Assembly: GCA_003222195.1 (NCBI GenBank)
Contig: QHVB01000024.1
Span: 248,001-312,000, forward strand
DNA from: Gemmatimonadota bacterium
GTDB taxonomy: Bacteria > Gemmatimonadota > Gemmatimonadetes > Gemmatimonadales > GWC2-71-9
Direction: 5' to 3'
DNA: 64,000 nt
Shown here: positions 48,398 through 53,054 of the stretch, one piece after another
Position numbering within the stretch: the first letter of the stretch is position 1
Layout of the letters: every line of letters starts with the position of its first letter
Made by a program: the position numbers and the translations under genes
Notes under the pieces: generated by a model
Database searches by the model: none
What the model was told of the DNA's origin: nothing
What the model saw: the letters and a program-made list of their open reading frames with translations, nothing else

Positions 48398-50272
48398 CTA
48401 GGCGACCCTCCGCCGCCAGCGCGTCGCCTCGAGGACGAGGTTGTGGAGATCGCTGGGCGTTACACCGGGGACGCGGGCGGCCTGCGCGAGCGAGCTGGGA
48501 CGCACGCGATCGAGCTTCTGTCGTGCCTCCGTCGCGAGTGTGCGCAGCTCGAGATAGGGCAGGTCAGGGGGCAGGATAAACGCCGCGAGCTCGGCGAGTC
48601 GCGCCGCTGCCTCACGCTCTCGCGCCAGATAGCCGTCGTACTTGATCTCGATTTCCGCAGCCACGATCGCCTCGGCCGCAGCGCCGGTCCCAACTCCGGC
48701 CGCAGCGAACAACGCGGCCAACGACACGCCAGGCCGCTTGGCAATCACGGCAATCCGATCGCTCTCCGTGAGCGTCGTACCGCTCTCGGCGAGTGGGCCC
48801 GCCGCCTCTTCCGGAGTGATCGTCGTCTCGCGCGCGAGCCGCAGCGCTGACTCTTCCTCCTCGAGCCGTCGCTCCGCAGCGCGCAGCTCGTCGTCGGTCA
48901 ACAGACCGAGCCGCTCCGCGAGGGGCACCAGTCGACGCAGCGCATTGTCCTGGCGGAGCAGCAGGCGGAACTCGGACCGCGACGTGAACAGGCGGTACGG
49001 CTCGTCGACCCCGCGGGTCACCAGATCGTCGACGAGCACACCGATGTACGCGTCATTGCGGCCGAGGACCACTGGCTCCGCGCCGCGGATGCGGCGAACG
49101 GCGTTGATGCCCGCTACCACACCTTGTCCCGCGGCTTCCTCATAACCCGTCGTCCCGTTGATCTGACCGGCGAAGAAGAGATGCTCGACGTTCTTCACCT
49201 CCAGCCACGGCGTGAGCTGTGTCGGTGGATAGTAGTCGTACTCGATCGCATAGCCGGGGCGCGTCATCCGCGCGCGCTCGAGCCCGGGGACGGCGTGCAA
49301 GAATTCGAGCTGCACGGCCACGGGGAGGGAAGTGGACAGCCCGTTCACGTACAGCTCGGTCGTGTCGAGGCCTTCGGGCTCGAGGAAGATCTGGTGACGC
49401 TTCGCGGTGGGGAACTTCACGATCTTGTCCTCGACCGACGGACAATAGCGTGGCCCGCGACCGCTGATCGCGCCGCCGTACAACGCGGACTCCTTCAAGT
49501 GTCGCTGGATGATGTCCTTCACCTCCTCGCCGGCCCACGTGATCCAGCAGGGCACCTGACGCGGCCGCTCGACGCGCTGGTGGAAAGAGAAGCGAAAGTC
49601 CTCGTTGTCGCCGTCCTGCCGCTCGACCTGGCTCCAATTCACGGAGCGGCCATCCACGCGCGGCGGCGTCCCGGTCTTGAAGCGCGAGACTATAAGTCCT
49701 GCATTTTCAATGACTTGAGCCATCTCCATCGATGGCTGATCGCCAGCGCGGCCGGCGGGAATTTGCGTGTCGGTGCCGAGGTGAATCCGACCGCGCAGAA
49801 AAGTGCCGGCGGTGATGATCACGGCCCGGGCCGTGAACCGCCGTCCGTCGCCCGTCTCGACGCCGGTGATCCGGGTGTCGCCCTGATCGAAAAGCAGATT
49901 GGTGACCATGCCCTGGGAGAGCTCGAGGGCAGGGAATTGCTCGAGCAGGAAGCGCACGGCGCGACGGTAGAGCGTACGGTCGGCTTGGGCGCGAGGAGCC
50001 CAGACTGCCGGGCCTTTGGAGCGATTCAGCATCCGGAACTGAATCGTGGCGCGATCGGCAGCGCGGCCCATCAGCCCGCCGAGGACGTCGACCTCGCGGA
50101 CGACGGTACCCTTCGCGATACCACCGATGGCGGGATTGCAGGACATCTGCCCGATCGTGTCGAGGACGGAAGTGAGCAACAAAGTCCTGGCGCCTAGCCT
50201 GGCCGCCATCGCTGCTGCCTCTGTTCCAGCGTGGCCACCCCCGACAATTATGACGTCATAATCGACTGGCAT
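48398..50272 (-). CDS. mnmG: tRNA uridine modification enzyme MnmG (GidA)
   Basis: 624 residues, FAD enzyme that with MnmE makes the carboxymethylaminomethyl group on wobble U34. It has [13 protein letters not shown] at the start, [23 protein letters not shown]-type MnmG core and the C-terminal helical domain that binds MnmE. Often mnmG stands with rsmG, parA and parB; here rsmG is missing. The native upstream region is replaced: an inverted-repeat element begins 14 nt before the ATG, and no Shine-Dalgarno site is obvious. Confidence 0.96.
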   Translation of the reverse strand: [624 protein letters not shown]

Positions 50273-50286
50273 TCGGAGAAACTACT

Positions 50287-50329
50287 AAGCGAGGACATGC
50301 AAAGGCTAGACGCACCGACGCACCGCGGT
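50287..50329 (+). repeat. left inverted repeat of the element
   Basis: The inner 29 bp (50300-50328) are a perfect reverse complement of 50787-50815; the pairing continues to 50287 with a few mismatches. The arm contains GACGCACC twice in tandem (GACGCACCGACGCACCG). Confidence 0.9.
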
Positions 50330-50335
50330 AAGCCG

Positions 50336-50713
50336 TTAACGGGTTTTAGGACGATCTGCCGCCTGACTGATTTTGCGGAGCAAGCCAAACAGCGTCTTGC
50401 TAGTTTCGGTTGCAAGCGCCTCGAGCCGTCCGTACTCAGCTGGACGGAGATAGCCGATGTCACGAGCCATTGTCAGAGCGGTTTGGACTTCGGCGAGAGA
50501 GCCCCACGCCGTATCCAGAAACCTTCGATAATCCCTGGTGCCCTTCTTGGTCGAACCTTCCGCAATGTTGAGTGGGACGCTGTAGGACGCTCTACGCAGT
50601 TGATCTGCGAGTCTCTCCTGCTCGAAGTCCGGAAACCGCTGAGCCGCTTTCGAGCACTCGACTGCTAATCTTTCGGCGTATTGCCAAGCCCTGAGGGTAT
50701 GATGGAGCGGCAC
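50336..50713 (-). CDS. four-helix-bundle protein (23S rRNA intervening-sequence protein type)
   Basis: 125 residues from GTG 50713, the usual length. The family signatures are clear: LRAWQYAERLAVECSK, then LADQLRRASYSVPLNIAEGS, RRFLDTAWGSLAEVQ and a last helix ending LLRKIS. The family forms basic pentameric bundles, first known from insertions in 23S rRNA genes, and probably binds RNA or DNA. A TTG at 50746 would lengthen it by 11 residues without added homology. It is transcribed with the ABC genes and mnmG. Confidence 0.88.
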   Translation of the reverse strand: MPLHHTLRAWQYAERLAVECSKAAQRFPDFEQERLADQLRRASYSVPLNIAEGSTKKGTRDYRRFLDTAWGSLAEVQTALTMARDIGYLRPAEYGRLEALATETSKTLFGLLRKISQAADRPKTR

Positions 50714-50785
50714 GGAGCAAGGATAAGCCGGTCCTCTGTCAAGCACTGAATCATTTCAGCTCGTCCCGTACCCGGTTTACTCGAA

Positions 50786-50828
50786 ACCGCGGTGCGTCGG
50801 TGCGTCTAGCCTTTGCCTGTCCGCGTTT
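50786..50828 (-). repeat. right inverted repeat of the element
   Basis: Reverse complement of the left arm: 29 bp perfect at 50787-50815 and about 14 bp more with scattered mismatches outward to 50828. It contains the tandem GGTGCGTC words. It stops 5 bp before the end of the ABC permease gene. Confidence 0.9.
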
Positions 50829-50833
50829 GACAG

Positions 50834-52090
50834 TTACGCAGTTCGGACCCAGCGCACCAGCTCCTTCATCGTCGGTCTCTTCCCCGTCATCAGGATCCCC
50901 ACCCGATAAATCCGAGCTGCGATCCAGGTGACCGCCACGATGCCAATCGCCAGAATCACCAACGAGAGCACCAGCTCCCACGTTGGCATACTGCCCGCGG
51001 TCCACCGTACTGGCGTCGCGATCGGCGTCGTAAACGGCACGAGCGAGAGTGTCCTCGCGAACGTCGAGCTGGGATCATTCGTGAGCCCGAGAATCGACAG
51101 GTACGAAACCATCAGAAGGTAAGTAACCGGCTGCTGCGCCTGACGCGCCTCCTGCTCGTTGCTCGACATCGCACCCACCGCCGCGAACATCGCCGAGTAC
51201 AGCAGAAAGCCGCCGAGGAAGAACGCGATGAAGACCGCGAGGGTCGCGGCTGGGATGTGTGGCAACACCATCGTTTGGACCGAGGCGGGGTCGGCCCCCA
51301 GCGCCCGAGCGATCGGACCCCGGAGCGAGAGCAGCACACGCGCCGAGACGCCCCAGATCACGAATTGAAAGAAGGAAACGGAACCCGCTCCCAGAATCTT
51401 GCCGAGCATCAGCTGGAATGGACGAATCGACGAGACGAGCACCTCGATGATCCGGGTCGTCTTTTCCTCCAGCACCGAGCTCATGACGTTCACACCATAT
51501 AGCAGAATCGCCATGAACAGCAGGATCGCCATGAAATAGGCCATGAAGAACGATTGCGTCGCGCTGTCTGACACAGCCTTGCCGTGCGATATCTTCTTTT
51601 GGTCCAACGCGATACGTATCTGGGCCCAGTCGACGACTCCGGGGTTCACGCCCCTTTGCTCGAGGCGCGCCTTCACGACGAGTTTGCCCAGCGTCCGCTG
51701 CAACGACTCGATGGTCTGCATGCCGAGGTTGGATGCCTGATACTCGGCGCGACCCGTTTGGACCAAGTCGTCCGTGATGATCAGGAATCCATTCAACTGT
51801 TTCGACTCGACAAGATTACTGAGAGAATCGATCACGCCTGGACCTGCGGGCGCGAGCGTCGCCCGGAACGAGCCGCTGGCATCCAACGCGTCGACGACTT
51901 GCGGGCCCAGCTTGTCGGTCGTGCTGTCCACCACGGCGACGTTCCGGACGGCCCCGCCCATGGACTGGACGATCTGGAAGACGATGATCCCGGCGAAGAG
52001 CACGGGGCCCAGGATCGCCGATACCCAGAACCACCTGGTACGCACGCGTTCGACGAACTCGCGGCGAACGACCGCCCAGACCTTATGCAT
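50834..52090 (-). CDS. ABC-2 type transporter permease (NatB-like)
   Basis: 418 residues. After a basic N-terminus (VRREFVERVRTRWF) and a first membrane helix comes an extracytoplasmic domain of about 130 residues, then five or six helices with VLEEKTTRIIEVLVSSIRP. This layout is that of NatB-type sodium or lipid/drug exporters. ATG 52090 overlaps the ATPase gene stop by 8 nt. The gene ends just before the inverted-repeat element. Confidence 0.88.
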   Translation of the reverse strand: MHKVWAVVRREFVERVRTRWFWVSAILGPVLFAGIIVFQIVQSMGGAVRNVAVVDSTTDKLGPQVVDALDASGSFRATLAPAGPGVIDSLSNLVESKQLNGFLIITDDLVQTGRAEYQASNLGMQTIESLQRTLGKLVVKARLEQRGVNPGVVDWAQIRIALDQKKISHGKAVSDSATQSFFMAYFMAILLFMAILLYGVNVMSSVLEEKTTRIIEVLVSSIRPFQLMLGKILGAGSVSFFQFVIWGVSARVLLSLRGPIARALGADPASVQTMVLPHIPAATLAVFIAFFLGGFLLYSAMFAAVGAMSSNEQEARQAQQPVTYLLMVSYLSILGLTNDPSSTFARTLSLVPFTTPIATPVRWTAGSMPTWELVLSLVILAIGIVAVTWIAARIYRVGILMTGKRPTMKELVRWVRTA

Positions 52091-53054
52091 TGGCGCCGCC
52101 GTTTGCGCCGCCAGCGCCGCTCGCCGCCGCAGTGGCAGCCTCGGGACCAACCAGATCCACGAAGATTTTGTGCAGTGAAGGACTCGCTAGCTCGAAGCGG
52201 GCGAGCCGCGCTCCGGAGTTGACCAGGGCCTTGAGGATCGCCTGCGCATCGGCGCCAGGCGCGAGCTCCAGCTCCGCCTGCTGGCCGAAGTCCTGCAGCT
52301 TCGCCACGAGCTGTCGGTCCGCGAAGATCTGGCGCGCGTTCCCCTGGCTGCCATCGAACGCGACGATCACGTGCTTGCCCCCATGCGTGTGCTTGACTTC
52401 GGCGAGCGTGCCATCGATGAGCTTTTTGCCGCGCGCGATGATGCAGAGCCGGTCACAGAGCTTTTCCGCATGCTCCATGATGTGGGTGGAGAAGAGGACG
52501 GTCTTGCCGCGCCGCCGGTAGTCGACGACGGTATCGCGGAGCACCTGAGAGTTCACGGGATCGAGTCCCGAGAACGGTTCATCGAGAATGACGAGATCGG
52601 GATCGTGCAGGACGGTGGAAATGAACTGCACCTTCTGCTGCATGCCTTTGGAAAGATCGGAGACTTTGCGCAGTCGCCAGTCGGCGAGCCCGAGCCGCTC
52701 CAGCCATTCCAGTGCTTTGACGCGCGCGGCTCGGCGCGACACGCCTTTGGCCTCCGCGAGGAAGACGAGCACGTCGAGGACCCGCATGCGCGGGTACAGC
52801 CCGCGCTCTTCCGGCAAATAGCCGATGCGCGCCGAGTGTATCCGGCCGCCCCCGACCTGATCGAACAGCCGGATCGAGCCCCCATCCGGCTCGTAGATGT
52901 CCATAATCATGCGCAGCGTGGTCGTCTTGCCGGCGCCGTTCGGGCCGAGCAAGCCATAAATGAGGCCCGAGGGCACCGTCAGGGAGAGCCCATCGACTGC
53001 GGTGTGACCCGAGAAGCGCTTGGTGACGCGATCGACGACGACGGGTTCAGGCAT
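52083..53054 (-). CDS. ABC transporter ATP-binding protein (NatA-like)
   Basis: About 323 residues. Walker A GPNGAGKT, the signature LSKGMQQKVQFI, Walker B LVILDEPFSGLDP and the H-loop FSTHIM are intact. It pairs with the overlapping permease to form an exporter in the inner membrane. The C-terminal tail is Gly/Ala-rich. Upstream is a GGGGGAA-type short repeat of about 20 nt after the sufS stop. Confidence 0.93.
   Translation of the reverse strand: MPEPVVVDRVTKRFSGHTAVDGLSLTVPSGLIYGLLGPNGAGKTTTLRMIMDIYEPDGGSIRLFDQVGGGRIHSARIGYLPEERGLYPRMRVLDVLVFLAEAKGVSRRAARVKALEWLERLGLADWRLRKVSDLSKGMQQKVQFISTVLHDPDLVILDEPFSGLDPVNSQVLRDTVVDYRRRGKTVLFSTHIMEHAEKLCDRLCIIARGKKLIDGTLAEVKHTHGGKHVIVAFDGSQGNARQIFADRQLVAKLQDFGQQAELELAPGADAQAILKALVNSGARLARFELASPSLHKIFVDLVGPEAATAAASGAGGANGGANA

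Follow-up and report, generated by a model that had tools for sequence, protein, structure and literature searches.

A gene of the IVP (S23) four-helix-bundle family stands alone between an ABC permease gene and mnmG, enclosed by two long inverted arms, in the window, as we call the 64,000-nucleotide stretch of Gemmatimonadota DNA analyzed here. What kind of unit do the gene and its arms form? The initial annotation suggested a small mobile or self-excising element, acting at the RNA level, that has left rRNA. The arrangement that it described is correct: the gene lies between the permease (stop codon TAA at 50834-50836) and mnmG (start at 50272), and all three genes are on the minus strand (Table 1).

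Table 1. Features of the IVP unit and its neighbors, in positions of the window.
Feature	Position	Strand	Remarks
mnmG, neighbor	48398..50272	-	start 7 nt from the arm (50280); same neighbor in many relatives
mnmG-side arm	50280..50358		79 nt, 77% complementary to the partner arm (50757-50835); core 50287-50329
Perfectly complementary 31-bp core, mnmG side	50299..50329		partner 50786-50816
8-nt word GACGCACC, twice in tandem	50309..50324	+	inverted copy 50791-50806
IVP / S23 four-helix-bundle gene	50336..50746	-	136 aa, GTG start; PF05635 and TIGR02436
Permease-side arm	50757..50835		core 50786-50828
Partner of the 31-bp perfect core, permease side	50786..50816
ABC permease, neighbor	50834..52150	-	outer edge of the arm overlaps its stop codon; same neighbor in relatives

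The two arms are perfectly complementary over 31 bp, rather than the 29 bp first reported, and 40 of 43 positions pair between their cores, in agreement with the imperfect 43-bp extent given before. Each arm carries the tandem word GACGCACCGACGCACC already noticed in the initial annotation (50309-50324, inverted at 50791-50806). In a scan of the 64-kb window for inverted repeats of at least 24 nt whose partner lies no more than 800 nt away, these arms were the sole pair found. In the predicted fold of the minus-strand transcript, the arms form the outer stem, as had been expected, with an energy of -247.7 kcal/mol (z = -6.8; 0 of 100 shuffled sequences as good). The z-score and the window scan, together with the comparison with control flanks described below, rule out a chance inverted repeat.

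The translated ORF is indeed a protein of the 23S intervening-sequence type, matching PF05635 (23S_rRNA_IVP) with E = 2e-29 (102.4 bits vs. a cut-off of 33.8) and TIGR02436 with E = 4e-27 (94.5 bits vs. 24). Its start, a GTG at 50746, is uncertain, since homologs align only from about residue 4-15. The solved structural relative is XCC0516 (2gsc; E = 1e-16), a pentamer with five chains in its entry; a viral_contigs scan yielded only two relatives. IVP orthologs have a median dN/dS of 0.15, at a dS near saturation, and are thus under purifying selection. The IVP gene is the sole gene of the unit, which encodes neither a Y1 (HUH) domain nor a transposase. To our knowledge, no catalytic domain or activity is known in the IVP family. 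Nucleic-acid binding is a natural first guess because of the pentamer and of the family relationship to Avd discussed below. In the alignment, the residues corresponding to Q49, R52, S56, N60, E63, S83, and E86 of the window protein are nearly invariant across phyla, with the invariance of N60-G64 biased by the use of a peptide containing this stretch for locus finding. These near-invariant polar residues hint at a functional site.

The predicted fold is that of the intervening sequence of Coxiella burnetii, in which an S23p ORF lies within terminal inverted repeats forming a 28-bp stem, and which has been called selfish (PMC4990558). Intervening sequences in rRNA, of about 430-560 bp, share with the window unit a PF05635-type gene in a long stem of terminal inverted repeats. 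They differ in their location in 23S rRNA, whereas the window unit lies between permease and mnmG, and the IVP units described here also have arms of tandem words, gene-less copies, and several units per genome. The likeness in fold and the strong predicted stem would suit a reading in which RNase III cuts the stem in a permease–IVP–mnmG transcript and releases an RNA that acts as the working unit, as in rRNA. However, the arms also exist without the gene, and the insertions that we observe are in DNA, some of them read in frame as protein. Since units are also found between convergent genes and in both orientations (L039/L180, L179), excision from a through-transcript is not general. We consider this reading very improbable as the account of the unit; it and the element model favored below are not mutually exclusive.

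Copies of the arm alone bear directly on mobility. The window arm, which belongs to a family that we term F-type, is dispersed in its genome and recurs at seven to nine other places, so that the arm search proposed in the initial annotation did find further copies at unrelated sites. At least five of these copies (L118, L120, L123, and sites in L010 and L011) contain no gene and form hairpins of about 118-140 bp; gene-less hairpins are generally 70-145 bp long. The arms of at least five other IVP units of the host genome have gene-less hairpin relatives as well. In genomes from other groups or phyla, own-arm matches of one IVP gene number about 80 (G155), 60 (G156), and 22 (G158). Gene-less hairpins might instead be host terminators maintained by selection.

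The architecture of the window unit is general. A Pfam search of the 3.5-Mb host genome returned 12 IVP matches, and inverted arms flank all 8 IVP loci first found there, each pair with its own word family: besides the window type, these are GGCGGTC, GGCGGTTAAGCGGTT, AGGAGTC, GGGGCCT, GGTGTC, GGGGGAC, and GGCGTCAA. At several of these units the arm starts at the stop codon of the neighboring gene, on both sides if the neighbors converge. We extended the comparison to 82 IVP loci from Gemmatimonadota, Bacteroidota, Patescibacteria, Cyanobacteriota/Melainabacteria, Acidobacteriota, Chloroflexota, and others, using the flanks 750 nt further out as control. The median inverted-arm score is 23.5 at the IVP loci vs. 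11 in the controls, and the score exceeds the 95th percentile of the controls at 72 loci (50 of 58 outside Gemmatimonadota), with arms not above control at the other 10. Tandem periods of 7, 8, and 14 predominate, being found in 36 of 176 IVP flanks vs. 2 of 160 control flanks. Inverted arms of tandem words also frame IVP units on plasmids of Nostoc, Anabaena, Calothrix, Trichormus, and Pseudanabaena. An IVP gene between inverted repeats outside rRNA is therefore the common state across phyla, and the idea that the window unit descends from an rRNA copy is unsupported; the rRNA copies themselves look like a special case.

Comparison with sister species reveals both empty and filled hairpin sites. 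We searched six congeners with the joined flanks of eleven gene-less hairpins and found exact or near empty sites for L134 in G023, G069, and G121, for L118 in G117, for L139 in G069, and for L138 in G023 and G121. The empty-site comparison proposed at the outset thus succeeded for gene-less relatives of the unit. Further hairpin sites in the congeners held remnants or were filled, and the filled ones often hold another heptad family. No target-site duplication was evident at the empty sites, where the flanks are diverged.

Three hairpins (L138, L141, and L143, around locus position 1441-1573) lie within coding regions and are translated in frame, forming linkers or loops of the proteins. From their translations, we read the host genes as a ligD-like gene, a hydantoinase-like gene, and a two-domain aldehyde-dehydrogenase-like ORF. 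In the ligD linker, the words differ between genomes (GGGGAC in G000, GGGGCCT in G121, and GGGGAAT in G123).

At the permease–mnmG site itself, the picture is one of a conserved location with changing occupants. The initial annotation had named, as the mark of a fixed gene, a lack of arm copies elsewhere together with conservation of gene and arms at this locus in all relatives. Arm copies do exist elsewhere, although most of the relatives checked have the gene at the same site. Within one genus, this site is occupied by two IVP lineages, F and M, which are about 61% identical, while the mnmG genes of the same F- and M-bearing species are 84-91% identical. The IVP tree rejects the genus as one clade (p-AU 2e-5) and groups M with the IVPs of other genera, whereas the mnmG and permease trees hold the genus together with starred support; with mnmG alone, F and M are not shown to be non-monophyletic (p-AU 0.22 and 0.13). 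This conflict between the trees indicates that the unit has been exchanged between lineages at the same site. An immobile local gene with a terminator-like stem would agree with the shared site and the purifying selection. It is contradicted by the dispersed arms and the tree conflict, and the 12 IVP matches in the genome, the species without the unit (L160, L173), the inverted units (L039, L179), and the lineage replacement also speak against it; we regard it as extremely improbable.

The two species without the unit do not provide a clean empty site. In L160, 56 nt separate the aligned permease and mnmG, and the sequence is too diverged to place exact ends. L173 retains the outer ~10 bp of both arms and is thus a deletion remnant, not a virgin site. 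In L039/L180 and L179, the IVP gene is inverted with respect to its neighbors, an orientation that recombination between the arms of the unit might have produced.

The type of the gene-less hairpins varies with the resident IVP. We base this comparison on an arm-family match list that reaches E of about 5e-5 and whose counts are lower bounds. Among the matches listed, F hairpins are found in G000, G069, G089, and G121, all with F at mnmG, and none in G023, G123, and G117; M hairpins are found in G023 and G123, which have M at mnmG, and at two sites in G089, which has F. The same change is seen at individual loci, as three unrelated sites (L120, L010, and L011) hold F in G000 and G069 and M in G023. 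The GATGGAAT family is abundant in G069, whose IVP unit carries such arms. A strict one-to-one match between arm type and IVP fails in genus g17, where hairpins of types b and c are also found in G057 and G111, whose IVP is of type a. The L010 hairpin (2226-2343) and its orthologs (L201, L304-L306) lie behind a sigma-factor-like gene. Its loop contains an apparent conserved intrinsic terminator, kept while the arms were exchanged between species.

Natural losses of the gene show the same association. Permease and mnmG are adjacent, with no IVP between them, in G117, from the genus of the window, and in G079, from another genus. Neither has any match to the arm families of its congeners among the matches listed, whereas arm-family hairpins are present in 6 of 6 congeners of G117 and 5 of 5 of G079. 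Hairpins are thus found in 12 of 12 genomes with the IVP (including G043) vs. 0 of 2 without it, with a face-value p of about 0.011 that derives from only two independent losses. G061 and G067, two more distant genomes that lack the unit and are weak controls, have none of these hairpins either. G117 keeps other IVP genes, one of them with GTGCGTG arms, and has at least about 25 GTGCGTG matches.

Co-variation and co-loss would also be expected if the IVP were a host regulator that binds, as its regulon, hairpins at the 3' ends and junctions of many genes. The arms around its own gene would then serve autoregulation, and the sites would shift with its specificity and decay upon its loss. Such a regulator would be in keeping with the purifying selection, with hairpins at gene ends, including the apparent terminator enclosed in L010, and with sites that are partly conserved while the arm type tracks the IVP lineage. 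We treat it as the main rival and judge it unlikely. It explains less well the in-frame insertions within coding regions, the coexistence in one genome of several unrelated families that each have an IVP of their own, the copies on plasmids and in cas operons, and the replacement of the whole unit across genera. The empty sites, and neighbors without evident common function, point in the same direction.

The palindromes could also have spread by a transposase acting in trans, or by slippage and template switching, with the IVP as a passenger inside. Slippage does yield tandem words, template switching keeps arms alike, and the IVP may not be an enzyme. However, slippage neither seeds one word family at unrelated loci nor tracks the IVP lineage and vanishes with it. 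Y1_Tnp is absent from the hairpin-rich genomes G117, G156, and G158, which makes a Y1/IS200 transposase an unlikely mover; at least these three genomes do not depend on one for their hairpins. A passenger role of the IVP seems improbable to us.

We consider it moderately probable that the window unit is the gene-bearing ("master") copy of a widespread palindromic element with two components, in which the IVP acts on its own arms. The proposal of an element-like unit is in this respect supported by the arm copies, the empty sites of its gene-less relatives, and the lineage swap. The association of gene and hairpins and their turnover are observed; that the IVP protein drives the spread of the hairpins is an inference, as are the intermediate and the DNA-joining enzyme of this spread. 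In the proposed mechanism, each master would consist of an IVP/S23 gene between inverted arms of diverging tandem words of ~7-8 nt, and would form one system with the gene-less hairpins of the same arm sequence in its genome. The IVP would recognize its own arm in folded form, either RNA or single-stranded DNA, and would promote the copying of this arm to new places, preferably to existing hairpins or terminators and to gaps at gene ends. Such recognition and copying would explain why the hairpins of a genome match its resident IVP in arm type. They would be overwritten after a takeover by another IVP lineage and would decay after loss of the IVP gene. The rRNA intervening sequences would represent insertions of such copies into rRNA, tolerable because RNase III removes them. 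The preference for hairpin sites and the wholesale replacement of arms resemble homing or conversion more closely than random transposition.

A broader proposal, which we put forward tentatively and hold to be somewhat less than probable, is that IVPs are the trans-acting partners of tandem-heptad palindromes throughout the phyla. They may copy arms into hairpins or terminators, perhaps by RNA- or ssDNA-templated homing similar to that of diversity-generating retroelements, which would explain where Avd comes from as well as the rRNA intervening sequences and the heptamers of Xanthomonas and cyanobacteria.

Several known systems share parts of this behavior. Rickettsia palindromic elements are short and insert in frame into proteins, and MITEs are short palindromic elements with non-autonomous copies. 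Unlike both, the IVP hairpins have a protein-coding partner with the same arms and contain tandem-word arrays, and no target-site duplication was recognized. The closest parallel in organization is RAYT/REPIN, where a gene with palindromes and many gene-less palindromes persist and evolve together (PMC3116915, PMC8049555). The IVP differs in being a four-helix bundle and not a Y1 HUH transposase, and its hairpins differ in their length of ~70-145 bp and their long arms of heptad words. The IVP system would be a second, independent gene-plus-palindrome replicator.

Heptameric repeats of Xanthomonas (GGGAATC) and Nostoc (GGGGA(C/T)T) are intergenic and often form inverted pairs, with 70 such pairs in Xcc and 75 in Xac (PMC4692102). 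The same paper leaves their origin and agent open and does not mention S23/IVP (PMC4692102). IVP arms as a class are likewise intergenic, inverted pairs of tandem ~7-nt words, although the window copy has 8-nt words. IVP proteins are present in both groups, as XCC0516 (2gsc) in Xanthomonas and as the plasmid IVPs of Nostoc. The IVP is a plausible agent for heptameric repeats of open origin and may explain those of Xanthomonas and Nostoc. No paper linking the IVP to these repeats was found among open-licence PMC full texts. Nor did any report among these texts join intervening sequences, heptamers, and REPIN/RAYT, and we regard the gene-plus-hairpin unit as new as a system, one in which the protein would have the causal role.

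Avd, a subunit of diversity-generating retroelements that serves a reverse transcriptase, is a four-helix bundle that assists when the sequence of an RNA template is copied to a homologous target (PMC10053308). It belongs to the same four-helix-bundle superfamily as the IVP, a relation by family only, and the element proposed here suggests an ancestor for it. Under the proposal, a very common "hypothetical" family (four helix bundle / S23, PF05635) would also acquire both a role and a partner, and the origin of rRNA intervening sequences becomes a testable question.

The TAACTGA repeats of Beggiatoaceae are another family of 7-nt direct repeats, mostly not inverted (PMC4679880), and may or may not belong with the IVP palindromes. 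Two of the plasmid units lie in CRISPR loci, with the order cas6–IVP–cas4 and with inverted heptad arms: L246, from a plasmid of Anabaena sp. 90 (IVP at 1486-1854), where a type I-D cas1d is annotated, and L251, from a plasmid of Pseudanabaena galeata (1483-1842). These units may simply have inserted there or may serve a function within the cas operon.
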